Source: Candidatus Nitrospira nitrificans
GTDB lineage: Bacteria; Nitrospirota; Nitrospiria; Nitrospirales; Nitrospiraceae
Direction: 5' to 3'
NCBI RefSeq assembly: GCF_001458775.1
Contig: NZ_CZPZ01000023.1
Coordinates: 62,001-126,000 of the forward strand
Length of the DNA: 64,000 nucleotides
The notes under the pieces were generated by a model. The model was given only the letters and a program-made list of their open reading frames with translations, was not told the DNA's origin and ran no database searches. Below, one piece after another: positions 49,932 to 64,000 of the stretch. The translations under genes and the position numbers were made by a program. The stretch's first letter is position 1, and the number at the start of each line of letters is the position of its first letter.

Positions 49932-50132
49932 ATGAGTCCGTTTGGGACGAGTATTGCCGGGCTTGTGGGTGGAGTGGTGCTTCTGATGGGTCTGTTTGCA
50001 TTGTTCCAAAGGGAATGGAAGGCAGCCTGTGCTTGGTTTCTTTCGGGCCTGGCGCTGATCGCTCTGTTGACGTTTCTCGACAAACCAGGCTCTCACCCAT
50101 CAGAATCCTTTGAAACCCGCGAGACGCGCTGA
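49932..50132 (+). CDS. Small two-helix membrane protein
   Basis: A 66-residue protein with two hydrophobic helices (GTSIAGLVGGVVLLMGLFAL and ACAWFLSGLALIALLTFL) separated by FQREWKAA, and a short polar tail. A strong purine-rich ribosome-binding site (GGGGGAGAGGG) precedes the ATG, supporting a real gene. No recognisable family. The nearby stem AGACGG-TGCC-CCGTCT (50150-50165) may end its transcript. Confidence 0.6.
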   Translation: MSPFGTSIAGLVGGVVLLMGLFALFQREWKAACAWFLSGLALIALLTFLDKPGSHPSESFETRETR

Positions 50133-50270
50133 TCATCTCGATTGAATTCAGACGGTGCCCCGTCTTCAGCCTCAATCACGCCCTATGCGCCGTGTTTATC
50201 ACGTACGGTGAAGACCAATCCGCCGGACCTTCAGCATTCTACTAGCCCGCACTATTCATGACAGCGCGGG

Positions 50271-51299
50271 TTAGCCCGTCGGAGTCAACGGGGCAAACAG
50301 CAGAGAGCTCAAGGGGCTGGCAAGCAGGGGGGCGAGCATGAGTCCGAACTGGGGGAAATGGTCCTGCAACGACAGGAACAGGCCATGGTCCTTCAGCCAT
50401 TGTTCCGGTTCCGGCTCGGACTGATTCGAGGGACTTTCCTGCAGCAGAGTTTGGGCTCGCTTCGCCAGGAGGAGCGCGGCGGGGAGATATGTGGAGACCA
50501 GCATCAAGGTAAAGGTCACGCCCCAAAACAGAGTAATGGCTAAAGCCGTTCCCAGCACGGCTTCGTGCGCATCTTTGTCGGCGATCAATGCCGCCGGCCA
50601 CCGCAGCCAGGCTCCCATGTGCAAGACTCCTGCGACAAGAATCGCTGAGGCCGCAGCCAGCACTTCTTTCAAGCGCCTCATCTGCAGCGCATAAAACTCG
50701 GGATCCGGCTGAGCCCCCGCCATCGGCGGCGCGAGCGAGCTGCATGCTGCAAGCAGAGCCACCACCGGCACCACCATGGCTTGCACATTGACGATGGACA
50801 CAACCACCATCGCGTACCGTAAGAGATGTTCTCCGATCCGCTGAGGTCCGGCCTGGCGCAGGTTGTCATAGCTGAAGCTGAACACGGCTCGGTAGAGCGC
50901 ATGGGTGTCATCCAACGACCAGATAAAGGCCAGTCCGATGGAGGCGAAAAAGATTCCTACGGCTGTGACAACCAGCAGCCGCGGTCGCGGAAGCGATTGG
51001 TAAATGATGATCCCGCACACGATCAAGGCGTAGAGTCCGGCCACGAGGGCCACCACCACCGTCGTCAGCCAGATATACCGGGACTTGACCTCCACGAGAA
51101 AATGGGTGGGGTCGAGGGATTCCTTCGACGATTCCGACGCGCGGTGCATCAGCCGGCTCGTGAGGTGATGGAAATTGTCCACGGTGATATTGGAACTGAA
51201 TTCAAACAGGCCGACCGCGAGCGACAGAATGAACAGCGAGGGGACCATGAGGAGCAAGAAGCGATAGTCGGAAGCTGGTGAGGGAGCCCGGGGTGTCAT
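50271..51299 (-). CDS. Multi-pass membrane protein of unknown function
   Basis: A protein of about 342 residues with at least six hydrophobic segments, for example LLLMVPSLFILSLAVGLFEF, WLTTVVVALVAGLYALIVCG and ALAITLFWGVTFTLMLVSTY. The start at 51299 is preferred over ATG codons at 51401 and 51350, since the extra N-terminal residues are not membrane-like. No recognisable domain or active-site motif. It is downstream of, and on the same strand as, the hibernation-factor gene with a structured 76-base dyad between. Confidence 0.6.
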   Translation of the reverse strand: MTPRAPSPASDYRFLLLMVPSLFILSLAVGLFEFSSNITVDNFHHLTSRLMHRASESSKESLDPTHFLVEVKSRYIWLTTVVVALVAGLYALIVCGIIIYQSLPRPRLLVVTAVGIFFASIGLAFIWSLDDTHALYRAVFSFSYDNLRQAGPQRIGEHLLRYAMVVVSIVNVQAMVVPVVALLAACSSLAPPMAGAQPDPEFYALQMRRLKEVLAAASAILVAGVLHMGAWLRWPAALIADKDAHEAVLGTALAITLFWGVTFTLMLVSTYLPAALLLAKRAQTLLQESPSNQSEPEPEQWLKDHGLFLSLQDHFPQFGLMLAPLLASPLSSLLFAPLTPTG

Positions 51300-51430
51300 G
51301 GCATCCACATGCACGGAATACAAATCACCGGCGCACGTACAGGAAGGCATCCTAGCACAACTACGCAAAGGGGACGAGTCAAGAATAGGCGTGACGGACA
51401 CCGCATCCGGTGGCCATGACGCTATCCGCC

Positions 51431-51506
51431 GATCCTATTGAAACCGATCTTCCTCGTCTGAAGAAAACAGCGGTTTCGTCGGGAGATCATTGGGAGCGAT
51501 AGGATC
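51431..51506. other. Nested inverted-repeat structure
   Basis: GATCCTAT (51431-51438) pairs with ATAGGATC (51499-51506). Inside, GAAACCG (51440-51446) pairs with CGGTTTC (51471-51477), and TCTTC pairs with GAAGA around a 7-base loop. The nested arms would fold in RNA from either strand. It lies just after the hibernation-factor stop, so it could be a terminator without a U-tract, a leader structure or a small RNA. Confidence 0.35.
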
Positions 51507-51580
51507 CTACACTGCGTTTCAAAAGCCACGTCCATCTCGGATGAGACTCTGAGGGAAAAGTGAAACGTTTGCAGAGGTGT

Positions 51581-51895
51581 CTATCGCTCCTTCAATCGGC
51601 CGAGCGTGCTTTCCATCGACCGCTCGAGCTTGTCCGCCGCTCCGCTCAACGCCAGTTCGACCGTCGAGGCCTGATGGGTCACGGCGATGGGCTGGTGACC
51701 GGCTAGTCTGGCTTCCAGGACGCAGCGGATATCGTCATCTTTTGTTTTGTGGCTGTTGGTATCGCTGAGATGCGCTTCGACCCGTGTAATCCGATCACGA
51801 AATCGGCCGACGGCTCCTTCCACACTGGTCTCGACAAGAGCGACAATCTCCTCACGTCCATGGATGTGGTTATCCGTATTGACCTGAATCTGCAT
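51581..51895 (-). CDS. hpf: Ribosome hibernation promoting factor-like (HPF/RaiA, sigma54 modulation family)
   Basis: A 104-residue protein with the HPF/YfiA fold pattern: N-terminal MQIQVNTDNHIHGREEIVAL, middle ITRVEAHLSDTN and C-terminal AADKLERSMESTLGRL. It matches short HPF-type factors that inactivate ribosomes in stationary phase. The start at 51895 is selected because AGGGAG lies four bases before it; an upstream ATG at 51952 lacks this. The mid-region SHKTKDDDIRC is more acidic than standard. It is divergent from the guanidine operon. Confidence 0.65.
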   Translation of the reverse strand: MQIQVNTDNHIHGREEIVALVETSVEGAVGRFRDRITRVEAHLSDTNSHKTKDDDIRCVLEARLAGHQPIAVTHQASTVELALSGAADKLERSMESTLGRLKER

Positions 51896-52012
51896 CCGAC
51901 TCCCTCCCTCGCAGGAATTAATTGAAGAACGGACCCTACTCGCCAGGGGCAAAAAAAGTCAATCGAAGCTACGGCTACGGAGGAAGTCTCATTTGGGGTG
52001 CCTTGAGAGACC

Positions 52013-52041
52013 TTGACTTTGGTATATCAAAGTAATAGGCT
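52013..52041 (+). promoter_or_regulatory. Candidate promoter with overlapping palindrome for the guanidine operon
   Basis: TTGACT (52013-52018), then 17 bases and TAGGCT (52036-52041), form a weak promoter. A near-perfect 18-base palindrome (ACTTTGGTA-TATCAAAGT, 52016-52033, one mismatch) lies exactly between the two boxes. A repressor bound there would block polymerase. No cognate regulator is seen. Confidence 0.4.
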
Positions 52042-52054
52042 TTCAATAAATCGT

Positions 52055-52162
52055 TCCAAGAGGGAAACTAGGGTTCCGGCTGCCTTTAGCGGGAGCGTCT
52101 GGTCCAAGAGTTTCCGGCCTCGCATAACGAGGCTCCACGGAGGGATAAAAGCCCGGGAGATC
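52055..52162 (+). ncRNA. Guanidine-I (ykkC) riboswitch
   Basis: Conserved ykkC motif elements are all present in order: CTAGGGTTCCG (52068-52078), CTGGTCCAAGAG (52099-52110), a helix GCCTCG-CATAA-CGAGGC (52117-52133), and the 3' conserved block at 52137-52160, which has GGAGGGATAAAAGCCCGGGA in its core. This class binds free guanidine and turns on detoxification or transport genes. It precedes a permease and a GdmH-like guanidine hydrolase, exactly the gene types known to be controlled by it. Downstream, a CATGTAC-TGAG-GTACATG hairpin followed by CCTTTT (52162-52186) may be the terminator part of the expression platform. Confidence 0.9.
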
Positions 52163-52297
52163 ATGTACTGAGGTACATGGCCTTTTGGGAGTTTAACCTT
52201 TCGCACGGGAGGTCTTCGTTATGCAATTTCATTTATATTCCACAGATCTTTCCCTCCCGGATCCATCTGGCCTGCTGCTCAGCCGGAGAGGTCTGTC

Positions 52298-53773
52298 ATG
52301 GTCATGAATGAACCTTCGACTCCGGTTTTCCTTTCTGCCGTTGAAGATGCTCCCAAGACACTCAACCGCAGCCTCAGTCTCTGGAACAGCCTCACCATCG
52401 GCTTCGCCACCGTCTCACCGGTGGCCGGATTGTACGCCATTATCGGTGTGCAGACGGTCGTGACGGGTGGCGGGTGGTTTGCGGCGTTGGCGCTCTGTTT
52501 GGTGATGCAGCTGCTGGTGGCAACCGTGTACGCGGAGTTGTCCTCGCAGATTCCGATCGCGGGGGGCGCATACAAATGGGCGAGACAGCTCGGAGGCGCC
52601 ACTACCGGCACCTATGCCGGGGCCATCTACGTCAGTTCCACGATCGCGATGCTCACCACGACCGCCTATACCGGCGGGGTCTGGCTGGCGATTTTTTTCG
52701 GATCAGGAAGCGGAACAGGCGTCACGCTCGTGATATGGGGTGCGGTGTTTATGCTGATCTGCACCCTCCTCAACCTGATCCATGTCGCCGTATTCAAGTT
52801 CCTTATTTCTCTGGGCGTCTATGCGGAAATCGTCGGCTCGTTCGGCGTCGCGCTGTTGCTGTTCTTCTTTTTTCGGCAGCATGAGTTCTCCGAACTGTTC
52901 GCCCATCTGGGGACAGGAACCGCACCCAGCCACACCGCGGCGTTTCTAGCGGCGCTTGCCATTTCCGGGTGGGCGTTCATCGGCTTCGATGCCTGCTCGA
53001 CCATCGCCGAGGAAACGCATGACCCCAAACGGATGGTGCCGCGAGCGATCTTTTTCTCTCTCTGCATGGTGGGAAGCGTCGTGCTCTTCAACTCTGCCGC
53101 CCTGACCCTCAGCTTCAACCGCGAGACGTTACAGCACACGAGCGCCGCGTCCGATCCCGTCACACCGGTGATCGTCGCCAACTTTGGCGCTTGGGCCGAG
53201 ACTCCCTTTCTGGCGATTGTCATGATCGCGTTCCTGGCCTGCGGGTCATCCATGGTCCAGTACACCTCTCGTATCGTGTTTTCCATGGCTCGCGAAGGCA
53301 GTATGCCGGCCGTCCTCAGTCGGGTGACTGCCGCCGGCGCTCCGCGGAATGCCGTGCTGTTCACGGTACTGCTGGCCGCCCTGGGATTACTTTTCGGTCT
53401 CAATGATGAAGCCGTCGCCACGGTACTGGCGTTCGGCACGGGCGGATTGTACGCCATGTTTGCGATGACCACGGGCGTCGGACTCTACACCCGTCTCACG
53501 GGTCGCTGGGACCCTTCGCAAGGCCAACTGAAGCTGGGCTCGTGGGGGTTACTGATCAATGCAGCGGCGTTTCTCTGGTCACTCTTTGAATTCGTCAATA
53601 TCGCGTGGCCACGTCCCTATGCCGTATCGCCCGATGCCCCTTGGTGGCAACTCTGGGCTGTCCCGCTGGTTCTCGGAAGTATCCTAGGTGTGACCACGCT
53701 GTATCTCCTGGTCGTGAGAACGACAAGTAGCGACGCTCTGAGTCCGCGGGAGTCGACACCAACTCGAGAATGA
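52298..53773 (+). CDS. APC-family permease, probable guanidine transporter
   Basis: A 491-residue, roughly 12-helix permease of the amino acid-polyamine-organocation superfamily. It has SLWNSLTIGFATVSPVAGLY near residues 25-45 and AELSSQIPIAGGAYKWARQLGG, which is the APC signature region. Another conserved segment is WAFIGFDACSTIAEETHDPK near residue 230. The start at 52298 is preceded by GGAGAGG six bases upstream. Control by a guanidine riboswitch and coupling to a guanidine hydrolase 85 bases downstream suggest import of guanidine or a guanidino compound. Substrate is inferred from context; the APC fold also moves amino acids. Confidence 0.85.
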   Translation: MVMNEPSTPVFLSAVEDAPKTLNRSLSLWNSLTIGFATVSPVAGLYAIIGVQTVVTGGGWFAALALCLVMQLLVATVYAELSSQIPIAGGAYKWARQLGGATTGTYAGAIYVSSTIAMLTTTAYTGGVWLAIFFGSGSGTGVTLVIWGAVFMLICTLLNLIHVAVFKFLISLGVYAEIVGSFGVALLLFFFFRQHEFSELFAHLGTGTAPSHTAAFLAALAISGWAFIGFDACSTIAEETHDPKRMVPRAIFFSLCMVGSVVLFNSAALTLSFNRETLQHTSAASDPVTPVIVANFGAWAETPFLAIVMIAFLACGSSMVQYTSRIVFSMAREGSMPAVLSRVTAAGAPRNAVLFTVLLAALGLLFGLNDEAVATVLAFGTGGLYAMFAMTTGVGLYTRLTGRWDPSQGQLKLGSWGLLINAAAFLWSLFEFVNIAWPRPYAVSPDAPWWQLWAVPLVLGSILGVTTLYLLVVRTTSSDALSPRESTPTRE

Positions 53774-53858
53774 AAGATCGGTCGTTCGCCAAGTCTCGTA
53801 CAGCAAGGAGCGCTTCACAGAGAGTCAGAATCCATTCATCCGATAGAAAGGAGCATTC

Positions 53859-55007
53859 ATGGCAAAGAAGAGAACATACCAAGGCAAGGTTCCCCTACAT
53901 GACAAATACGGGCCAGAGGCGAAGTTCGCCGTGGAAGCGGAGGCGCTGCTGCCGACGACGAAACATGAAGAAGAAGTGGCTCGAGGTCTCGAATTGGGCC
54001 TGCAGGGGGCTGATTCCATCAAAGATCGCCGCATTCCCACCTTTAGTCGCGGAGAGCTCCCGCACTTCGCGGGCATCAACACCTTCATCAAGGCTCCCTA
54101 TGTCGAGGACGTTCGCAAATGCGGGGCATACGATGTCGCTATTCTCGGCGCGCCGTTTGATGGCGGGACCACCTATCGGGCAGGTACCAGGTTCGGACCC
54201 CAGGGAATTCGCAAGATCTCAGCGTTGTACGGCACCTACAGCTTTGAACTCGGTGTGGATTTGCGTGAATCCATCTCCATCTGCGATGTGGGCGACGTGT
54301 TTACGATTCCCGGCAACATCGAAAAGACCTTCGATCAAGTCAGCAAGGGCGTGGGCCATGTCTACGCCAGCGGCGCCTTTCCCGTGGTGCTCGGCGGAGA
54401 CCATTCCCTGGGCTTCGCCACCGTGCGGGGAGTGGCTCAGAATATGAACGGCAAGAAGCTCGGCATCCTTCACTTCGACCGGCATGTGGACACGCAAGAG
54501 ACCGATCTCGATGAACGCATGCATACCACGCCCTGGTTTCATGCGACGAATATTCCCAACGTGCCCGCGAAGAATCTTGTTCAGATCGGCATCGGCGGTT
54601 GGCAAGCGCCAAGACCCGGCGTGAAGGTCGGCCGTGAACGCCAAACCACGATCATGACCGTGACCGATTGCGTGGAAATGGGCATCGAGAACGCGGCGAA
54701 GCAGGCGCTCGAAGTGGCGTTTGATGGCGTGGATGCCGTGTGGTTGAGCTTCGACGTCGATTGTTTGGACGCCGCATTCGTGCCGGGCACCGGCTGGCCC
54801 GAGCCGGGAGGGTTTCTCCCGCGTGAAGTGTTGAAGTTTCTCCAGATCATCGCGGACACGAAGCCGTTGGCGGGCATGGAAATCGTGGAATGTTCACCGC
54901 CCTACGACGCGGCGGAAATTACGAGCCTCATGGCCACGCGGGTGATCTGCGACGTCCTGGCCTGCCAGGTGCGATCCGGCAACTTGGCTAATCGGAAGAA
55001 ACGCTGA
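53859..55007 (+). CDS. gdmH: Guanidine hydrolase (guanidinase), GdmH-like ureohydrolase
   Basis: Metal-dependent hydrolase that splits guanidine to urea and ammonia. The ureohydrolase (agmatinase/arginase) metal ligands are intact: His182 in LGGDHSLG, Asp207/His209/Asp211 in HFDRHVDTQ, and Asp299/Asp301 in SFDVDCLDAAFVPGTGW. The variant HFDRHVDTQETDLDERMHT (instead of the agmatinase HFDAHTD), the N-terminal stretch ADSIKDRRIPTFSRGELPHF and GTGWPEPGG match, from memory, the cyanobacterial Ni-dependent guanidine hydrolase Sll1077. The 382-residue length also fits. A good ribosome-binding site (AAAGGAG) precedes ATG 53859. Position under a guanidine riboswitch strongly supports guanidine as substrate. 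No HypA/HypB-like nickel chaperone is in the window. Confidence 0.9.
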   Translation: MAKKRTYQGKVPLHDKYGPEAKFAVEAEALLPTTKHEEEVARGLELGLQGADSIKDRRIPTFSRGELPHFAGINTFIKAPYVEDVRKCGAYDVAILGAPFDGGTTYRAGTRFGPQGIRKISALYGTYSFELGVDLRESISICDVGDVFTIPGNIEKTFDQVSKGVGHVYASGAFPVVLGGDHSLGFATVRGVAQNMNGKKLGILHFDRHVDTQETDLDERMHTTPWFHATNIPNVPAKNLVQIGIGGWQAPRPGVKVGRERQTTIMTVTDCVEMGIENAAKQALEVAFDGVDAVWLSFDVDCLDAAFVPGTGWPEPGGFLPREVLKFLQIIADTKPLAGMEIVECSPPYDAAEITSLMATRVICDVLACQVRSGNLANRKKR

Positions 55008-55044
55008 GAGATGCTGGTTTTGGAATGACAAAGCAGCGAGGTGA

Positions 55045-55070
55045 GGGGCTTGCACCCGTGCAAGCCCCTT
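55045..55070 (+). terminator. Strong intrinsic terminator of the guanidine operon
   Basis: GGGGCTTGCA and TGCAAGCCCC form a perfect 10-base-pair stem around CCCG, 38 bases after the guanidine hydrolase stop. Only TT follows directly, so termination efficiency is uncertain despite the strong stem. Confidence 0.7.
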
Positions 55071-55280
55071 CGTTCGCCGGATTCATTGTACACATCCAGC
55101 TGGTGATTCCCATCGATACGGCTGATTAGGAACTATTCATATCACCGACGATGACTTTGCCAACTGAATGCAGGCATTGCTAGTACCGAAGGCAATGCAC
55201 GAATGACCAGTCTATACACATGCTGATCCTACTTATGTGTCACTCTGTTCCGGGCTTACTCTCGGATACATAAAGCAGTC

Positions 55281-56770
55281 ATGTTGTTTGAAGAACAAGT
55301 TGTTGAGCTGCTTAGGCGGTGTGAGAAACTCGTTGGGAAAGAACTGTCCCAAATACGAAGCGACCTCAAGTCAGCACAAACTCGTGGCGCAGCTGTCTGG
55401 GAACTGCTCGTTATTGAAGCGTCCGCTCATATGGGCGCTCTTCAACACGAGCCAAGGCAAAATGGGACTCTAGATATATAGGTAAGTCGTCCAGAGGGTA
55501 GGCCCATATGGGTGGAAGCCACATATCTAAATTCGAGATTTCTGGATCAAGAACGGAGGTCGGACGCTGTAAAGGCTTGGTTCTTTCAAGAGGCAAGTCG
55601 TCGCAAAATTCCTTTGTCCCACATGTCGGTTCGCTTTGATGGACGAACGACACAAGCAGGGACAGCAAGAGCTCTTCCGGAACTCAATGAACGTCCACAA
55701 TTCCTCAAAATTGCGGAAGGTCCGAGACTTCTTTGAGGCGATCGAATCTCAGCCGAATGATTCCCATACGTGCACATTGTCTCAATATACAGTGTCGGTC
55801 ACGTATACACCTATATCTCAAGGACCATGGGTTTCAAGCTGCGGGCTGGCAATGGAATCGGCTAAGTCATTAAAACAGCACGCCGTATATCTGAAGTTGA
55901 AAAAGAAAGCCAGCCAGGTCTCGCTGGCAGAACCCATGATTGTTGCGTAGGAAGTGACACCAGCCCAGCGTTTTCGCGCCTTCGGGCTCCAGGGTCTTCC
56001 TCTATAAGAGATGCAGTCATGGCTGCCTTTAGAGAGCATTCGTCGCTGTCAGCCGTTGTGCTCGTTTCCATAGGGATCGATATTGGTTCGTTCGAACGTC
56101 GGGTCACAGTTCAATTGTGGGTCAATGATTCAGCGAAATATTCACTTTCGGATGACGAAGTAGAACTTCTAAACCAAATGAACTTTAATCGTTGGAAATA
56201 CACGTACCCGTTTGCGAACTGGGATCGAGCAGGCACTGCCCAACCAATGGTTGGTACGTTGACTACAAAGGTGAGGACGATGGAGATAGAAGTCGAGATT
56301 CCGTCATCAATTCTTATGAGTTTCTAGCAGGACGAACATGCTTGTCGAAATCCTACAAATGGGAACATCCTTATGTGATTCGAGCCTTAGAAGAAGGATG
56401 GGCAATAACTGCCTGCTCCTTAAAGGATGGAGATATCGAGTCCGCTCAAACACCCAAAATAGTCCTGAAACTCGTTTCACCTTCGCGGTTCGTGCGGGCA
56501 AGTAAACCAAAATCGAGCCCGATGGCCTGCTGCTCCTCCACGTGCTGTTCATCAAGCAGCGCGTGCTTTTCTCCGTACAGGCAACTTGCCCCGCAGTCAG
56601 ATGGCGGAGAGCTGCCGCGTATTCCAAGGTGCAAGATGAAAAGATTTTCACGAGGCATTCATATTCCCTTCATCCAGGGCTGTTATACAGAACCATGTAA
56701 TGGGTATTTGGAAGATGAGGAATTCCTTGGTTCCCTTCATCGTACTTCAGCCGTATGTTGTCGATGCTGA
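55281..56770 (+). pseudogene. Decayed hypothetical gene (one stop, three frameshifts)
   Basis: Fragments of one ancestral protein can be read through four lesions. The frame begins at ATG 55281 (LRRCEKLVGKELSQIRSDLK). A TAG at 55479 interrupts GTLDI-VSRPEGRPIWVEATYL in the same frame. An extra base near 55719 shifts PQFLKIAE to VRDFFEAIESQPNDSHT. A lost base near 55941 joins PMIV to CVGSDTSPAFSRLRAPG. A lost base near 56244 joins AGTAQP to NGWYVDYKGEDDGD. The recognisable part ends near 56470, although the frame stays open to 56770. The reconstructed protein would be about 390 residues. I recognise no known family. A real pseudogene or a low-quality assembly segment are both possible. Confidence 0.6.
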
Positions 56771-56798
56771 AAGAAAAAGAAAAAGGAGGTCTGACGTC

Positions 56799-56876
56799 AT
56801 GACGGCCATAATTCTCTCCGTGTTTATGCTGGGCATCATGTTTGGGGTCATGTACAAAGCGTTTAGTACAAATTAG
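56799..56876 (+). CDS. 25-residue membrane microprotein
   Basis: ATG at 56799 opens a 25-codon frame ending in TAG at 56874-56876. The product is a single hydrophobic helix (TAIILSVFMLGIMFGVMYKA) with a short polar tail FSTN. It is preceded by AAAAGGAGGT at optimal spacing, a near-perfect ribosome-binding site that is far stronger than that of most genes in the window. No homologous family is recognised. Similar one-helix microproteins often modulate membrane complexes, but no partner is evident here; flanking genes are a pseudogene and a haloperoxidase-like enzyme. Confidence 0.55.
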   Translation: MTAIILSVFMLGIMFGVMYKAFSTN

Positions 56877-57193
56877 TTGAGCTGCTGGCCGAAAGTTCGC
56901 ATGTGTTCAAGTGAAATTATCCGTGGGAAATTTCACGGCAAGCGCGTTCATCCCTCCTCATGCTGCGGAGTTTCAGTTGTCCAAACAATTAGACGATCTT
57001 GAGGACCTTATCCCCACGCTCCCAACTGTTGACTATTCCGCACTGCCGAACTGCCGAAAACAACTAATAATAGAGAGTCCGCGTGTGGTCGCCGTCAGCG
57101 GAGCAAGCACGATAGTTGCTGAGAGACAGGCTTGAGCTTGAGGCGCTTGATTCCACGGCGAGTCATGTTTCGAGAAGGAAAGGTGATAGGCAC
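56877..57193. other. Gene-poor gap with a GTGAAATT dyad
   Basis: No convincing gene is present; a GTG-initiated frame at 56911 lacks codon or family support. A perfect 8-base inverted repeat GTGAAATT / AATTTCAC spans 56911-56936 with a 10-base loop and could be an operator or a weak terminator for the microprotein. A possible ribosome-binding site (AAGGTG) lies just before the next gene. Confidence 0.4.
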
Positions 57194-58432
57194 ATGATGA
57201 TCAAGTATCCGGTCATATTGCGAGCAGGCCTGATTTCAGTGCTGTTGACCGCATCCGCACTGTCGGATGCCGGCGCGGATGCCGTTACCGACTGGAATGA
57301 GCGTGCCGGAGAGATCATGGTAAGCGCGCACATGGGGCCATTGCCGGCGGCTCGAGCGCTGGCGATGGTTCAAGCATCGGTGTATGAAGCCGTGAACGCC
57401 ATCACGCAGCGGTATCCGATCAGCGATCTGAAACTGGAAGCCGCATCCGGCGCGTCAGTTGAGGCGGCGGTCGCGGCGGCCAATCATGCGGTTATGACCG
57501 AGCTTATTCCTTCTCAGCAGGCCGTGATCGATCGGGCCTATCAAACCGCGCTGACGGCAATCGCTGATGGAGCAGCCAAGACCGGCGGGATCGCAATCGG
57601 TGAAAAAGCGGCGGCGGGCGTTCTGGCGTGGCGCGCCGATGACGGAGCCGCAGCAGGCGAATCGTATCGTCCTTATACAAGCGCAGGAACCTATGTGCCC
57701 ACCGTCATACCGGAAGTTCCCCAGTGGAGGAATCGCAAGACCTGGTTGATGACCGGCCCGGCACAGTTTCGTCCTGGACCACCTCCCGAACTGGGAAGTG
57801 AACTATGGGCGCGTGACTACAAGGAGGTGAAAGCGCTGGGCGGAAGGCAGAGCCGCCGCCGGACCGCCGAACAGACCGATATTGCGCGGTTCTGGGAAGA
57901 GGTCATGCCGCCGATTTACGATGGAATCGTGCGTTCGGTCGCGAAAGGCTCGGGGAGAGACATCACGCGGAACGCGCGCTTGTTTGCCGCAGTCACACAG
58001 GCCGCGGATGACGGCTTGATTGCCGTGTTTGACGCCAAATATCACTATGAGTTCTGGCGGCCGGTCACCGCCATTCGCAACGGCGATATCGACGGCAACG
58101 AGGCGACGGAACGAGAAGAATCTTGGGTGCCGTTCATCGATACACCCATGCATCCGGAATATCCTTGCGCGCACTGTATTACTGCCGGCGTCGTCGGTGC
58201 GGTATTAAAGGCGGAGATCGGCAATGATCGAACGCCGGTACTCACAACGACCAGCCGCGCGGCAGGCGGGGTCGTGCGCAGCTGGACCACGGTGGATGAT
58301 TTCATGCAGGAAGTCTCGAATGCGCGTATCTATGACGGCGTTCACTATCGTAACTCCGGGGAAATAGGGACCGAGATGGGCAAGCATATCGCCCAACTGG
58401 CGATCGCCAAATACATGTTGAACCAAAAATAG
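57194..58432 (+). CDS. Vanadium-dependent haloperoxidase-like (PAP2 superfamily) exported protein
   Basis: A 412-residue exported protein with a signal peptide (LRAGLISVLLTASALSDAGA). The vanadate/phosphate-binding motifs of the haloperoxidase-PAP2 superfamily are present: AKYHYEFWRPVTAIR (Lys and Arg), MHPEYPCAHC (His; the usual PSGH is PCAH) and RIYDGVHYRNS (Arg and catalytic His). It could oxidise halides or act as an acid phosphatase; sequence alone cannot decide. The start at 57194 (MMIK) follows AAGGTGATAGG; an in-frame ATG at 57116 would put a non-signal segment in front. Neighbours do not suggest a pathway. Confidence 0.78.
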   Translation: MMIKYPVILRAGLISVLLTASALSDAGADAVTDWNERAGEIMVSAHMGPLPAARALAMVQASVYEAVNAITQRYPISDLKLEAASGASVEAAVAAANHAVMTELIPSQQAVIDRAYQTALTAIADGAAKTGGIAIGEKAAAGVLAWRADDGAAAGESYRPYTSAGTYVPTVIPEVPQWRNRKTWLMTGPAQFRPGPPPELGSELWARDYKEVKALGGRQSRRRTAEQTDIARFWEEVMPPIYDGIVRSVAKGSGRDITRNARLFAAVTQAADDGLIAVFDAKYHYEFWRPVTAIRNGDIDGNEATEREESWVPFIDTPMHPEYPCAHCITAGVVGAVLKAEIGNDRTPVLTTTSRAAGGVVRSWTTVDDFMQEVSNARIYDGVHYRNSGEIGTEMGKHIAQLAIAKYMLNQK

Positions 58433-58641
58433 AATCTACGGTCTCACTGCTCCGTGATGATCATCGCTCAACCGATTTCTCCTCTCCTTCGCTCCTGGCC
58501 GTCACTGTAGATGACGCATTTTCCCACAGCGACGGTCCGATCGGTGGGGCTCAATGCGCCAGTTCTTAGCTCTCAACCTGCCTCTCGATCGGGTATATTG
58601 CAGCGGTGATTTCTGGAACATGACTTGCGAGGTCTTGCGGT

Positions 58642-59730
58642 ATGCCAACGTTGAGCAAGCACTCATTGGAAAAGTATCTGCGGGCTCGTTTCGGCCCTCA
58701 GGTCGAGCTGTTGGCTTATGGAGTCATCGGCAAAGAGAGCTCCAAAGGAGAGCAGAAGCGGTATGGGTATGGCACGCCGGTCAAAGTGACCTTCCAAATC
58801 GGACGGCGGGTTCAGTCCGCGGTGCTCGAAACGATGAAGCCGGGTCCGTTCGGGCACGAACATATGGCCGATCGCGCCCAGGCGATGTTGTGGGACTACG
58901 ATTCGTATGGACGCCTTCCGCGCCATGTGAAGGCTCTCGATGTGGGAGCGTTCGACGCCGACCAGGCGCTCTTTTCCTTCGCGGAGGCCCGCGAGTTCTT
59001 CGTGCTGAATGAATGGACCGATGGAGCGAGCTATCATGCGGATCTTGCGCGGCTGGCGAAAGGCGGGAGCTTACGGAAGTTGGATCGACAACGCACCGTC
59101 GCATTGGCTCGTTATTTGGCTCAAATCCATGCCAAGAAACGACGAGACGCGGATCTGTACAAGCGTCGGTTGCGTGAATTGATCGGCCACGGCGAATGCA
59201 TTATGGGGTTGACCGACAGCTATCCCAAGCGTTGCGGCTTTATCACAGGCGATCTGTTGCGAACGGTCGAGGAAGCCTGTAACCGTTGGCGGTGGCGCCT
59301 TCGTGACAAGGTCAATCGTCTTTCACAGGTTCATGGGGATTACCACCCCTACAACGTGCTGTTCCGTGCCGGGACGGATTTTGCGGTGTTGGATCGATCA
59401 CGAGGGGAATGGGGCGAGCCGGCGGACGACGTGACCGCGATGACGATCAACTATCTCCTTCACTCATTGATCAGCCGGGGCAAGCTTCAAGGGTCGTTCG
59501 AGATCTTGTTCCGATTGTTTTGGGACACCTATGTGGAGGTCAGCGGGGACAAAGCAGTTGCGGAAACGGCTGCGCCGTTCTTCGCCTTTCGTGGCCTGGT
59601 CGTGGCCAGCCCGCTCTGGTATCCCAATCTGTCGATCGACATCCGGCGCAGCCTCTTCCGTTTCATTGAAAACGTACTCGATGTGCCGCGCTTTGAGCCG
59701 GAACGGGTGAATGAGTATTGCGGGGTTTAA
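58642..59730 (+). CDS. APH-family phosphotransferase
   Basis: A 362-residue protein with the aminoglycoside-phosphotransferase/protein-kinase-like fold. The catalytic loop is VHGDYHPYNVLF (Brenner-type HxDxxxxN) near residue 235, and the Mg-binding Asp is in FAVLDRSRGEWGEP. A GAGGT site lies about eight bases before ATG 58642. The physiological substrate is unknown; the family phosphorylates sugars, choline, amines or proteins. It precedes a P-loop kinase gene by 145 bases that contain heptad repeats. The two kinases may act on one metabolite or glycan, but this is inference. Confidence 0.8.
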   Translation: MPTLSKHSLEKYLRARFGPQVELLAYGVIGKESSKGEQKRYGYGTPVKVTFQIGRRVQSAVLETMKPGPFGHEHMADRAQAMLWDYDSYGRLPRHVKALDVGAFDADQALFSFAEAREFFVLNEWTDGASYHADLARLAKGGSLRKLDRQRTVALARYLAQIHAKKRRDADLYKRRLRELIGHGECIMGLTDSYPKRCGFITGDLLRTVEEACNRWRWRLRDKVNRLSQVHGDYHPYNVLFRAGTDFAVLDRSRGEWGEPADDVTAMTINYLLHSLISRGKLQGSFEILFRLFWDTYVEVSGDKAVAETAAPFFAFRGLVVASPLWYPNLSIDIRRSLFRFIENVLDVPRFEPERVNEYCGV

Positions 59731-59733
59731 ACA

Positions 59734-59775
59734 GTCATGGGTCAATCGTCATGAGTCATTGGTGAAGAGTGGAAC
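59734..59775 (+). repeat. Heptad-repeat tract, forward arm
   Basis: GTCATGG, GTCAATC, GTCATGA, GTCATTG, GTGAAGA and GTGGAAC follow with exact 7-base period. With the reverse-oriented tract at 59838-59893 it forms a large imperfect inverted pair separated by about 60 bases. Confidence 0.7.
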
Positions 59776-59837
59776 TGTTGCGAAGCGAGGACAATCCTGT
59801 TGGGTCCCATTGGCAGGAATCACCACCCGAGCCTATC

Positions 59838-59893
59838 GACCGATGACCATAACCATTAACCATTCCCATTGACGCATGCCCATTGACCATCCC
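59838..59893 (-). repeat. Heptad-repeat tract, reverse arm, overlapping a start codon
   Basis: On the minus strand, GTCAATG-like units recur with a period of about seven bases and occasional one-base slips. The P-loop kinase start codon at 59876 lies inside this tract, so repeat changes would alter the translation start region. Confidence 0.6.
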
Positions 59894-60418
59894 CCAAGCT
59901 TTGCCATTTGGCTCACCGGCTTGCCCGCTTCGGGGAAGAGCACAATTGCAGCCGCGCTAAAGCCAAAGCTGGAAGAGATTGGTCCTGTCGAAGTCCTCGA
60001 ATCGGATGTGGTCCGCAGGATTTTGACGCCTCATCCGACGTACAGTGTTGCGGAACGGGATCTGTTCTATCGTTCACTCGCGTTCATGGGCGCAAGACTG
60101 GTCGCTCATGGCGTCACCGTCCTCTTCGATGCCACAGCCAACAGACGCGCCTATCGAGACTTTGCCCGCGGCCTGATTCCTCGGTTCATCGAGGTCGCCG
60201 TGGAATGTCCGTTGGAACTGGCCATGCAGCGTGACTACAAGGGGACCTATCAGCGAGGCCGACAGGGAGAATCTTCGACCGTGCCGGGGATGCAGGATCC
60301 CTACGAAGCGCCGATCCATCCTGAAGCGGCCATAGATACAACGAAGCTCTCCGTGAACGACGCGGCAAGGAAAGTACTGGACGTCGTGAAGGAGAAATTC
60401 GACCCACCGTATTCTTGA
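59876..60418 (+). CDS. P-loop kinase, adenylylsulfate-kinase-like
   Basis: A 180-residue kinase with Walker A WLTGLPASGKSTIAAAL near residue 14. The fold resembles APS kinase (CysC), but key APS-kinase features differ: the usual LDGDNVR is LESDVVRRI and the FISPxR segment is FDATANRRAY. It may therefore phosphorylate another small molecule, or be closer to gluconokinase- or zeta-toxin-like enzymes. The N terminus (MPIDHPP) is encoded within a heptad repeat tract. It follows an APH-type phosphotransferase, suggesting a shared modification pathway. Confidence 0.7.
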   Translation: MPIDHPPSFAIWLTGLPASGKSTIAAALKPKLEEIGPVEVLESDVVRRILTPHPTYSVAERDLFYRSLAFMGARLVAHGVTVLFDATANRRAYRDFARGLIPRFIEVAVECPLELAMQRDYKGTYQRGRQGESSTVPGMQDPYEAPIHPEAAIDTTKLSVNDAARKVLDVVKEKFDPPYS

Positions 60419-60508
60419 GCGTTTCTGTAAGCGCCCATATGCAGCTGCGCGAGCCATCGTCCCACGTTGCTTGATGAGGCCCTCTCCCGGTCGCTATAGT
60501 GTCGCACC

Positions 60509-63500
60509 ATGAGTAAGATGCCTGCGTCCCGTCGCAGAGGGGGGAGTGGCCCCCTTTCTGAAACGAAGGAGAGCCTCTTCATTCCTACTTCCGCCTCGGC
60601 GGCCCTTGTTGCCGCATTCCGCGCCCTTACCGTCAACGATCTCTACACGATGGCCCCTAAAGAGACGGTGCTCAGGGGATATGACTACTACCGGCAGCAA
60701 CGGCTTCAGCACTATGTCTGGGGTAAGGACGGCGCCATGCTCGCGGCGCAGGTGCAGGGAACCAGCCTGTACGAGGTCATCTTTTCTCTCGACGAGGGGT
60801 TTCTCGCTTCGTTCTGTGACTGTCCGGCCTGGGATTTCGATTGGCTGTGCAAACATGTCCTTTGCGCCTGCTTTGCCGCCAAACATCTGCTGTCGCCCGA
60901 GACGTTCCCATTGTCCGATCGGCAACAGGCGCACCTGGCCGCGCTCCGAATTGAGCTGCTCGGCGACCTCGCCGAGGCGGGTTCCATCAAGGGGATGGTC
61001 CCCTCCTGGAATGGGGGCGGTCTCTCTGAGTCGGGCTATGAAATCGTAATCAACGTCGGCCAGCCGTATCCGCAACTTGTGATCCATCGGAACGGTGTGC
61101 GGCTTCCCGCAGGATGCACTCCCGCGTTACCGCCGGAGCTGCGTCCACTCCTGAATCCGTCTTGGTTTTCGTCAGGATATGGGGACGAACCCTTACAGCG
61201 CTATCTCCTTGTCTCCAAGCGCCGGTTCCCGATCGTGCTGAAAATCGGCCTGGAATCTATCGCCCTGGACTGGACTCCGTCGGTGACCTGTCGGAGCAAG
61301 ACAGAGATCGCTCTTGCCGGTGATGATGTGAGGATTCGCGCGGTCTGCATCGCCGACGGAACGGCGCTCGACAGGATCGTTCGCATTCGCGGCTTCGTGG
61401 TCGACGTGACCGGCCGCCGCTTGCTCTGCTTGGGGGATGAAAGCGGATGGGCTTCGTTTCGTGCGTTACGCAACGGTTTCCAAGGGTTCAACGCCGATGC
61501 CCCTGGGGGCGGACCGGCCGGGACGTTGTGCGCCGTGACCTTACCCGACGGCCGGGGCCATGGGCGATGGCAGGGCCTCCACCATGAAGTGGAGTTCACC
61601 GTCTCACGGAACGAGTTCCGGTCCGCGCAGATCGATCTGCTTCAGGAACAGGCCGACAAGATCTTGCGCGATCTTCTGCTGCGCGTGGATGGGAACGAGG
61701 CGCCGGTGCATTCTTCTGACCCTGCGTCGGGGGTCGAGGAGGTGTCGTACGCGTTGATTCTGGCGCCGCTCCCGGACGAGGCCGGCGCGCCGACCACCGC
61801 ATGGATGCTGCGGACGGAATGCCGGCGCAGTGACGCCCGGTTTGCTCCGAGCGCCTCGACCTTTTCCTTCATCCGGGCGTTGGAACAGGGCCGAGCCGTG
61901 TCCGCGCCGTTGCGGGCACAGAAGCGCAAGACCATGCTCTATGATCTGTTCTTCGCGTTGCTCACGGTCGGCGAGGCCAAGGAACGAGATCGTCGCATCA
62001 AAACGGCGCTGGATCAGACCGATTGGGCGAGAAGCATCCGTCTTGAGGCCGCTCAATGGCTGAGACACCATCTGTCGGTGTACGCCGGTCAAGATGTACG
62101 GTTGCAGGTCGACGAGAGGCGGTGGACACTTCGCGCGATCGACAAACACCGCGAAGCATTGCTGTACCGGATTCCATTCGAGGTCTTCGGTCTAGAGGCG
62201 TTTCGCGGCATGCCCTCGTACGACGCGATGAGGATCGACCCGCTCGTGCTGTTCCAGCGATTGCCGGATCTTTTGGAAAAGCTGACGGCAGCCGGGATCA
62301 CATTGCTGTACGAAGACAAGCCGCTCCGGCCCATTCAGTGGGACTGCACTGTCCAAGTCGGGCGTCAGGATCGAGAGGGGACCGGGATCGACTGGTTCGA
62401 GATCCGGCCGGAGATTCGCTGCGACGGGGTGGTGATCGACGAGACGGAATGGCGGGCGGCCGTCCGGCAGGGCGGAATGATCGATACCGGGCACGGTCTG
62501 CGGGTCTTGGATGGGCAGACCATGGAGCGGCTGCGCGCGATCATCGGCCTCACGGGTGATGCGACGGAGGATCGAAAAACAGCGCAGGTCGTGCATGTGC
62601 CTCGGTTACGGATCCTCGATTGGCTGGCGCTGCGCGAGCAGGGCATCCCCGTGTCGCTGCCCGCTGAGGATGAGGCGGTGCTGGCGCGATTGCTGGGGTT
62701 CGAGCGGATCGAGAAGCCGCCGTTGCCGAAGGCCCTGCACGCAAAGGTGCGTCCCTACCAGCAGGACGGCTACGCCTGGCTCGCGTTTCTCTACGAGCAT
62801 CGATTCGGCGCCTGCTTGGCGGACGACATGGGATTAGGCAAGACCCTCCAAACCATCTGCCTGCTGGCCGCCATCAAGGAGGGATGCATCAAGACCGCTT
62901 GCGGGATAAAGGGGCCTCATCTGGTCGTCGTCCCGACGAGTCTGCTCTTCAACTGGGAACAGGAGCTCGCGCGCTTCGCGCCCGGTTTGACGGTTCATGT
63001 ATATAGCGGGAGCGAGCGGACGTTCGAGGCCGGGGACGGCGATGTGGTGCTCACGACCTATGGGTTGGCCCGCCGGGATATCGACAGCTTGGAGCGAACG
63101 GCGTTCCATGTGATCGTGTTCGACGAAGCCCAGGCGGTCAAGAACATTCGGGCGGACACGACAGGCGCGGTCCGCCGGCTCAAGGGGCGCTTCAAGATCG
63201 CCCTGACCGGCACACCGCTCGAAAACCATCTGGGCGAGTATTTCTCCGTGATGGACCTGTGCGTGCCGGGCCTCTTAGGCGAGTACGATGGCTTCAAAAC
63301 GGATCTGAAACGTATCGAAGGTCGCGCGCTCGATCAGGTGCTGCGGCGGACGCGGCCCTTTATTCTGCGGCGGACCAAGGCCGAGATCCTTCAGGACCTG
63401 CCGCCGAAAATCGAACATGAAGTGTTTCTTGAGTTGACCGATCGGCAAAAGGCGCTCTACAAACAGACCGTCGATCAGGTTCGCTCAACGATCGACGACG

Positions 63501-64000
63501 CCTATCGCACCAAGACCTCCGGGCAGGCGCAGCTCATCGCGCTCACGGCCATCCTCAAGCTGCGGCAGGTCTGTCTTTCGCCACGCCTCCTTACGAAGCA
63601 AACCGATGAGACCTCCCCCAAGCTCGGCTTCCTGGTGGAGCGGCTCCAGGTCTTGCGCGATGAGGGGCACAGCGCCCTGGTATTCTCGCAATTCACCAGC
63701 TTTCTGGACCTCGTGCAGGAAGCATGCATCCGCCATGGGTTGCCGTACCATCGCTTGGATGGGTCCACGGCACCGACTCTGCGCAAGGCCCGCGTGATGG
63801 CGTTTCAGACCGGTGAACAGCCGAGCGTGTTTCTCTTGAGTCTCAAGGCGGGAGGGCAGGGGCTGAATCTTACCCGAGCGAGCTATGTCTTTCATCTGGA
63901 CCCCTGGTGGAATCCGGCGGTGGAGCGTCAAGCGTCGGACCGCGCGCATCGCATCGGGCAACGGCAGACGGTCTCGATCGTGCGGATTCTCATGCGCCAC
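60509..64000 (+). CDS. SNF2-family helicase with SWIM zinc finger (3' partial)
   Basis: A frame open from ATG 60509 to the right edge (1164 codons, no stop), so the gene continues beyond the window. The N-terminal SWIM-type zinc finger has a CxC...CxH arrangement in CDCPAWDFDWLCKH (about residues 107-120). A long middle region is followed by the SNF2/SWI2 ATPase: motif I ADDMGLGKTLQT near residue 770, motif II FDEAQAVKN (DEAQ box), motif III LTGTPLENHLGEYF, and the HepA-type C-terminal motifs SLKAGGQGLNLTRASYVFHL and DRAHRIGQ. It is probably an ATP-dependent DNA translocase acting on nucleoprotein or in repair. An internal ATG at 60518 is possible. Confidence 0.9.
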   Translation, partial: MSKMPASRRRGGSGPLSETKESLFIPTSASAALVAAFRALTVNDLYTMAPKETVLRGYDYYRQQRLQHYVWGKDGAMLAAQVQGTSLYEVIFSLDEGFLASFCDCPAWDFDWLCKHVLCACFAAKHLLSPETFPLSDRQQAHLAALRIELLGDLAEAGSIKGMVPSWNGGGLSESGYEIVINVGQPYPQLVIHRNGVRLPAGCTPALPPELRPLLNPSWFSSGYGDEPLQRYLLVSKRRFPIVLKIGLESIALDWTPSVTCRSKTEIALAGDDVRIRAVCIADGTALDRIVRIRGFVVDVTGRRLLCLGDESGWASFRALRNGFQGFNADAPGGGPAGTLCAVTLPDGRGHGRWQGLHHEVEFTVSRNEFRSAQIDLLQEQADKILRDLLLRVDGNEAPVHSSDPASGVEEVSYALILAPLPDEAGAPTTAWMLRTECRRSDARFAPSASTFSFIRALEQGRAVSAPLRAQKRKTMLYDLFFALLTVGEAKERDRRIKTALDQTDWARSIRLEAAQWLRHHLSVYAGQDVRLQVDERRWTLRAIDKHREALLYRIPFEVFGLEAFRGMPSYDAMRIDPLVLFQRLPDLLEKLTAAGITLLYEDKPLRPIQWDCTVQVGRQDREGTGIDWFEIRPEIRCDGVVIDETEWRAAVRQGGMIDTGHGLRVLDGQTMERLRAIIGLTGDATEDRKTAQVVHVPRLRILDWLALREQGIPVSLPAEDEAVLARLLGFERIEKPPLPKALHAKVRPYQQDGYAWLAFLYEHRFGACLADDMGLGKTLQTICLLAAIKEGCIKTACGIKGPHLVVVPTSLLFNWEQELARFAPGLTVHVYSGSERTFEAGDGDVVLTTYGLARRDIDSLERTAFHVIVFDEAQAVKNIRADTTGAVRRLKGRFKIALTGTPLENHLGEYFSVMDLCVPGLLGEYDGFKTDLKRIEGRALDQVLRRTRPFILRRTKAEILQDLPPKIEHEVFLELTDRQKALYKQTVDQVRSTIDDAYRTKTSGQAQLIALTAILKLRQVCLSPRLLTKQTDETSPKLGFLVERLQVLRDEGHSALVFSQFTSFLDLVQEACIRHGLPYHRLDGSTAPTLRKARVMAFQTGEQPSVFLLSLKAGGQGLNLTRASYVFHLDPWWNPAVERQASDRAHRIGQRQTVSIVRILMRH

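Follow-up and report, generated by a model that had tools for sequence, protein, structure and literature searches.

A family of predicted tiny membrane proteins in Nitrospira, many of them behind a promoter block associated with one two-component system

Results

A 25-codon frame with a strong Shine-Dalgarno sequence

The window, by which we mean the whole 64,000-nucleotide stretch of Candidatus Nitrospira nitrificans DNA analysed here, contains a short open reading frame running from an ATG to a TAG (56874-56876) and preceded by a Shine-Dalgarno (SD) sequence and two degenerate promoter blocks (Table 1). An earlier note on this DNA had described the frame as an overlooked membrane microprotein behind a near-perfect ribosome-binding site. 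Both the 25-residue frame and AAGGAGGT were found where that note had placed them, and a single membrane helix is indeed predicted, with a Kyte-Doolittle maximum of 2.37 (mean over 17 residues). The 64-kb window holds 1052 start-to-stop frames of 20-35 aa. An SD match of at least 7 nt preceded 10 of these, and the present frame alone combined such a match with a hydrophobic stretch above 1.8. Dinucleotide shuffles (n = 20) gave on average 4.3 frames with an SD match of at least 7 nt and 0.05 frames with both properties, in agreement with the claim that the initiation signal exceeds chance.

Table 1. Features of the microprotein locus, in window positions. R1 is a sequence-only model of the promoter block; its E-values are rough because calibration was shortened.
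Feature	Position	Strand	Description
Microprotein ORF	56799..56876	+	25 codons, MTAIILSVFMLGIMFGVMYKAFSTN; predicted single hydrophobic helix; motif FGVMYKAF
Shine-Dalgarno sequence AAGGAGGT	56783..56790	+	about 9-10 nt ahead of the ORF start; conserved across the family
Box 2, degenerate promoter block	56715..56757	+	R1 match at 56733-56756, 3.8 bits, E 3.5
Box 1, more distant degenerate block	56636..56687	+	best R1 match of the window, 9.4 bits, E 0.061

At 52057-55007 the window also carries a guanidine-I riboswitch (52057-52161, Rfam 93.7 bits), behind which lie two genes, one of the amino-acid-permease family and one for a hydrolase of the arginase family. An arrangement for guanidine uptake and guanidinase has been reported for comammox Nitrospira (PMC12342949, excerpt), and this stretch, judged by its predicted genes, is that arrangement.

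The frame belongs to a conserved coding family

A translated search with the peptide (E up to 10) returned one match in its own genome. Of 58 other genomes, 10 gave matches (E 2.8e-5 to 1.8), and every one of these 10 belongs to the same genus. The loci recovered in this way hold frames of 25-30 aa, each with a recognisable SD sequence before it. A profile was built from 11 sequences (A1) and then from 65 (A2, 65 rows out of 90 distinct sequences, 2 of these further trimmed); the window ORF, itself a row in both, matched at E 4.2e-12 (A1) and 1.8e-8 (A2, own genome). At E<0.005 the A2 profile detected the family in 49 of 63 sampled genomes of the genus and in none of 133 sampled genomes from other genera of the order, where the best match (E 0.017) lay within a 696-aa frame. 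As far as sampled, the family thus appears confined to one Nitrospira genus, comammox members included; 39 of the 63 genomes, the window's among them, have an ammonia monooxygenase (AMO) match. Copies reach 12 per genome (G090, E<0.005). Two genomes had 16 matches at E up to 1, and in G090 12 of the 16 were below 0.005. The source genome of the window has three members, namely the ORF described above and a tandem pair on another contig.

From the fetched loci we collected 105 members (107 ORFs minus two damaged frames, with three N-termini trimmed to the family start), which stem from related species and hence are not independent. They measure about 27 residues (24-32 aa) with a single predicted helix. 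In the A2 alignment G16 and Y19 are kept in at least 90% of the 65 rows, within a conserved G..Y.A motif. Upstream, 9 or 10 positions of the ten-letter AAGGAGGTGA are kept in 81 of the 105 members; among 2100 control windows, 9 positions were kept in 7 and 10 in none. The subtype of the window copy, group W, occurs at five other loci, each with a 25-aa frame (68% identity to one and 40-48% to the rest) and AAGGAGG or AAGGGGG ahead of it.

The earlier note had named a translated search of related genomes and a comparison of synonymous with nonsynonymous change as ways to check its claim. Frame and ribosome-binding site are both kept in relatives. The pN/pS ratio, calculated for each group on the distinct ORFs that share its most frequent length (in W all are equal; group X, with 14 members, was left out), was 0.20 in group A, 0.30 in B, 0.37 in C, 0.54 in E, 0.37 in F, 0.24 in G and 0.37 in W. 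Column-shuffled controls were as low as the observed value in at most 1% of cases in each of these groups, and the W value lay under all 200 controls. The family is under purifying selection in all seven subgroups examined.

Known families (Pfam, NCBIfam and PHROGs, searched with 65 members) gave scattered weak matches that were inconsistent between members, and we rejected them as relatives. The best were an unannotated PHROG (0.00023, 3 of 65 members) and DUF3094 (0.0026, one member); matches to respiratory subunits comprised cytochrome o subunit IV (0.0056, one member), NADH dehydrogenase J (0.0057, 7 of 65) and PetG (0.039). Listings of the open-access literature showed no description of the microprotein family or of the promoter block described below.

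Subgroups occupy distinct genomic places

Groups A and B form a tandem pair behind genes for a response regulator (RR) and a histidine kinase (HK). For 22 of 24 group A members and 20 of 23 group B members (42 of 47 together), RR/HK genes of the source genome's own type lay upstream at a distance of at most 3.5 kb; this also held for 6 of the 14 ungrouped members. Six genomes have one lone ungrouped copy, which lies 132-227 nt behind the kinase. The gene after the A/B pair is, at four loci, one that we take to be smpB-like, and at these same four A/B loci the next gene is on the opposite strand. Named subtype B holders are Nitrospira MAGs including RSF1, RSF5, RSF12, CG24B and LK70. Among the loci listed, group C lies near polyphosphate kinase and CBS or CYTH-CHAD genes (Pfam on L047), and group E follows a kinase and a sigma-54-type regulator (Pfam on L058). 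A gene that is presumably exopolyphosphatase-like is near group F in 3 of 7 of the loci listed, and group G adjoins, among those listed, a gene that we take to be glycosyltransferase-like. Group W is found near an APH-family gene, a PAP2-type gene or both (Pfam on the window's genes, with PAP2 under its cut-off).

Two of these groups have peculiarities of their own. Group C (e.g. L043, L054, L098) shows a different conserved upstream block, about TTCACACAGAATTGGCACGTTCGTAAC and with an 11-bp periodicity; this block may be a Pho-box-like element. In group E, 4 of 7 loci checked (L014, L034, L069, L078) have a further hydrophobic frame of 29-34 aa, of the MMSDEMAMLTISGAIIFAVMMLAMLMRKA type, in tandem before the microprotein.

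A 52-bp block precedes most members

An iterated weight matrix identified a 52-bp block ahead of 64 of the 105 members (scores 35.8-77.8); the window scored 13.7 and all remaining members -15.9 or less. Separate upstream alignments of groups A, B and F yielded the same block, which was found in W too. The 59 distinct copies among the 64 members (alignment A4) have 15 invariant columns and a consensus of about ATGAAGAAYTCTTCAYGRTYTCATCATSGAnnCTTCATnTTnnnGnrGTATA. The block starts with a CusR-like palindrome, ATGAAGAnnTCTTCAT, of 7-bp halves and a 2-bp spacer, which is followed by C(T/A)TCAT-like repeats at 11-bp spacing and by a TATA about 10 bp past the last repeat. Promoters activated by OmpR/PhoB-family regulators have this same build. 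In 61 of the 64 members the block ends 26-41 nt from the start codon; in L110 and L071 this distance is 99 and 66 nt. The block counted for L044, a group B member, is in fact that of the neighbouring A gene. Of the 105 members, 41 are without a full block. These comprise the window's copy, every member of groups C, E and G, seven of the 14 ungrouped ones and two of group B.

Operators of CusR/CopR share the palindrome layout, with 7-bp half sites, a 2-bp spacer and ATGA at the beginning; E. coli CusR prefers AAAATGACAAnnTTGTCATTTT in a 7+2+7 layout (PMC11195947, excerpt). The block differs from these operators in the 11-bp-spaced repeats after the palindrome and in its use at many promoters, whereas the CusR regulon of E. 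coli and P. paraeruginosa is described as very restrictive (PMC11195947, excerpt).

The block accompanies an OmpR-family response regulator

The own regulator, encoded at positions 83803-84483 of contig C6 (genome G000), has Response_reg and Trans_reg_C domains, as in the OmpR family. Among NCBIfam models it comes closest to the heavy-metal subfamily cztR_silR_copR (260 bits, under the 279 cut-off). We searched 77 genomes of the genus for both R1 (counted at E <0.01) and this regulator. The block was present in 62 of 62 genomes with the regulator, and of the 15 genomes where the regulator was not found, 11 showed no block either (Fisher P 2e-10, with ancestry not corrected for); P values here are optimistic because relatives are not independent. 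Strong blocks with no close regulator found occurred in four genomes (G004, G007, G070, G086). Among the 62, regulator identity was at least 81% in 57 and 67-69% in 5; the five divergent genomes have weak blocks only, and one TAA lies inside these regulator matches. The microprotein was present in 45 of 47 genomes with a close RR versus 2 of 14 otherwise.

Among 133 genomes from other genera, 60 had the block when matches with E up to 0.01 were accepted (counted by hand). Of the genera of Nitrospirales that were sampled, 14 of 35 have the block. We fetched 15 block loci, from 14 of the 60 genomes with matches and picked among the strongest. An RR 64-87% identical to the own one accompanied 11 of the 15 (two over part of its length), and one further locus had part of the kinase. 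At 6 of the 15 loci, all in genus g12, a 33-36 aa membrane microprotein stands next to the kinase gene and follows the block; its homology to the present family was unsupported (hhalign probability 2.9% and 1.6%). Regulator, kinase, block and small membrane protein are thus found together beyond the limits of the family, and this speaks for a functional link between them. The assignment of the block to one response regulator of the OmpR/CusR family is a strong inference; this regulator would bind the block and activate the promoters. Its gene and that of its kinase stand immediately ahead of the copies that are best conserved. The signal of the kinase is probably a metal or envelope stress.

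Other genes behind the block

Targets were inspected in 20 stretches picked from the block matches. In the own genome and three others (L214, L218, L225, L231) the block stands before a membrane-anchored protein that is followed by an amoC-like gene. At the own-genome locus (L214:2999-4603, contig C12) a microprotein-like start, MMTGLLMMVALSAGAGVMYR, is fused in frame to the membrane-anchored protein. Neither Pfam nor NCBIfam gave a match to this first protein, whereas the product of the next gene passes the NCBIfam cut-off for AmoC. The other three genomes were judged by eye. The AmoA match of the own genome is on a different contig from the block-preceded amoC; in G024 and G012 the pair of membrane-anchored protein and amoC lies directly behind an amoC-amoA-ftsH stretch. 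The cluster in these two genomes (L225, L231) reads, with names partly by eye, NarL-type regulator, amoC, amoA, ftsH, block, hypothetical protein and second amoC, and no amoB was seen between its members.

Another gene behind the block encodes an Slp-type lipoprotein (by Pfam at L230, by eye in three further cases), and between the two lies a microprotein-like frame that has decayed. The block stands, in the own genome too, before a gene of about 105-116 aa that has a helicase-like gene after it (both named by eye). Further A-like microproteins appeared in 5 of the 20 stretches (L216, L221, L222, L232, L233), and three (L217, L226, L227) had no nameable target.

The block is sharp enough to predict a regulon, spare amoC included, and the two-component system may also control that gene. 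Singleton, non-operonal amoC (amoC3) is reported from all betaproteobacterial AOB and from comammox genomes, which have at least one, and is stress-linked in AOB (PMC6311188, excerpt). The block-preceded amoC resembles amoC3 of ammonia oxidisers in lying outside the operon; amoC3 is said to be under sigma-32, whereas amoC here is preceded by a block of the response-regulator type.

The window copy has decayed blocks

Neither box of the window copy is an intact shared block, at 9.4 and 3.8 bits and with the weight-matrix score given above. In box 2 the palindrome core is kept as AGGAATTCCT, the flanks are changed on both sides, the outer right half is lost and the whole is 9 nt shorter than at the five other W loci. 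Those loci carry two block-plus-ORF units, of which the upstream one, at the place of box 1, has the weaker block (9-21 bits) and the downstream one the W microprotein. The separate frame of the upstream unit, about 75 aa of VHNMLDLSMVYFPYVVMG... type with the motif MVCFPYVVMGxGQAVI, was not found in the window. It lies about 320-350 nt upstream of the W microprotein (L053, L055, L060, L062, L066) and also occurs at L110, before group A.

Upstream of the start codon the window frame stays open, giving 58 aa from an ATG at 56700, and in group W this extension has a pN/pS of 0.42 (P 0.048). We rejected an N-terminal coding extension because this stretch is the promoter block, and ahead of other groups the block often does not leave the frame open.

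Since both window blocks are degenerate, control of this copy may be altered, and it may be poorly or differently controlled. Its pN/pS against single relatives is 0.32-0.71, so that selection may be relaxed in its own lineage. The simplest reading is that this member arose by duplication, was relocated and has promoter blocks that decayed.

Discussion

The ORF at 56799-56876 looks like a real, conserved tiny membrane protein. Its family is conserved and coding, most of its members share a block, and family and block co-occur with one two-component system, which many members adjoin. From its sequence the peptide would be a membrane protein, and its topology and induction are likewise predictions. 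The reading that we favour, with moderate confidence, is that a response regulator induces these microproteins and that they act in the membrane, where the kinase is a possible target. The kinase would sense a signal, probably metal or envelope stress, and the regulator would then fire the block promoters; the strong SD sequence would give much peptide, which would insert in the membrane and tune membrane proteins. The likeliest single target would, speculatively, be the neighbouring kinase, as for MgrB on PhoQ. Such feedback, suggested by position and by the MgrB analogy, is a guess that we would sooner expect to fail than to hold; action on other envelope proteins is also a guess.

Size, single helix and the conserved G..Y.A motif would suit a subunit with a structural or assembly role in a membrane complex, be it a respiratory oxidase, AMO or a transporter. 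Such a subunit would be of the kind of CydX, PetG or KdpF, and the shared promoter would merely co-express it with its complex. The microprotein-like start fused, or nearly so, in frame to the membrane-anchored protein before an amoC-like gene in four genomes points the same way, as do the weak library matches to NADH dehydrogenase J, cytochrome o subunit IV and PetG, and genomes with AMO have the family more often than those without (36 of 39 versus 13 of 24, P 0.001). Given a close regulator, however, the family is present in 33 of 35 genomes with AMO and 12 of 12 without; the regulator is therefore the better predictor, and we set AMO aside as the main cause because its association is weaker. 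Moreover, no oxidase, AMO or Kdp genes were seen by eye among the neighbours listed for groups A-C, E-G and W, and the library matches, which vary from member to member, amount to a resemblance between single helices. CydX, a cytochrome bd subunit, is likewise a small single-helix protein. The CydX/YbgT motif, YxxWxxGx15E/D (PMC4325964, excerpt), is absent from MTAIILSVFMLGIMFGVMYKAFSTN, and neither a CydX-family nor a KdpF model is among 25 of the 26 Pfam and the 10 NCBIfam families listed. A subunit role seems to us unlikely.

Still less probable, in our judgement, is a small hydrophobic toxin of the type I toxin-antitoxin style multiplied in the genome. Tiny size, hydrophobicity, a strong ribosome-binding site, several scattered copies and tandem pairs would fit, but groups A and B keep their place behind RR/HK in most species sampled, which is unusual for toxins, and the members have an activator-type promoter in common. 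Their place before the gene that we take to be smpB-like is also kept, at four loci. Antisense RNA was looked for through Rfam in window positions 50000-64000, where the guanidine-I riboswitch was the sole match. We give similarly little credence to the short frame being a leader, for which the act of translation would count rather than the peptide made, or being incidental to a promoter cassette of block, SD and start that spreads and places genes under the regulator. The frame is indeed fused or decayed at amoC and slp-type loci with the block retained; pN/pS well under 1 in all seven subgroups examined argues against this, as does the next gene lying on the other strand at four A/B loci.

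The favoured reading, regulator-induced microproteins acting in the membrane, has known counterparts. MgrB, MgtR, MgtS and PmrR belong to the regulon of PhoP or PmrA. Like these, the family would consist of small membrane proteins (about 30-47 aa in those cases) under an OmpR-family response regulator; those proteins are enterobacterial and the family belongs to a different phylum, and the likeness is drawn without any claim of sequence relation. MgrB is an inhibitor of its kinase, PhoQ; MgtR favours the breakdown of MgtC by FtsH (PMC8404706, excerpt). In contrast to the MgrB group, the family has up to 12 paralogues per genome, many behind one block type and several adjoining the kinase gene.

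As to its history, we tentatively propose, at somewhat less than an even chance, a widespread CusR-like regulon in Nitrospirales. In one genus, a cassette of promoter, SD and microprotein would have been born beside the two-component genes and copied genome-wide (up to 12 microproteins per species), capturing the spare amoC, the slp-type lipoprotein and the helicase-linked gene by fusion or decay. If true, the upkeep of ammonia monooxygenase in comammox bacteria would by this route have come under stress control by a two-component system. Most small membrane proteins known to be controlled by two-component systems are enterobacterial; here they would form a large, dispersed microprotein family in little-cultured nitrifiers. 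A 25-codon frame with a strong SD sequence can thus lead to a whole regulon, and the block would make it possible to test how complete ammonia oxidisers react when metals or envelope damage put them under stress.
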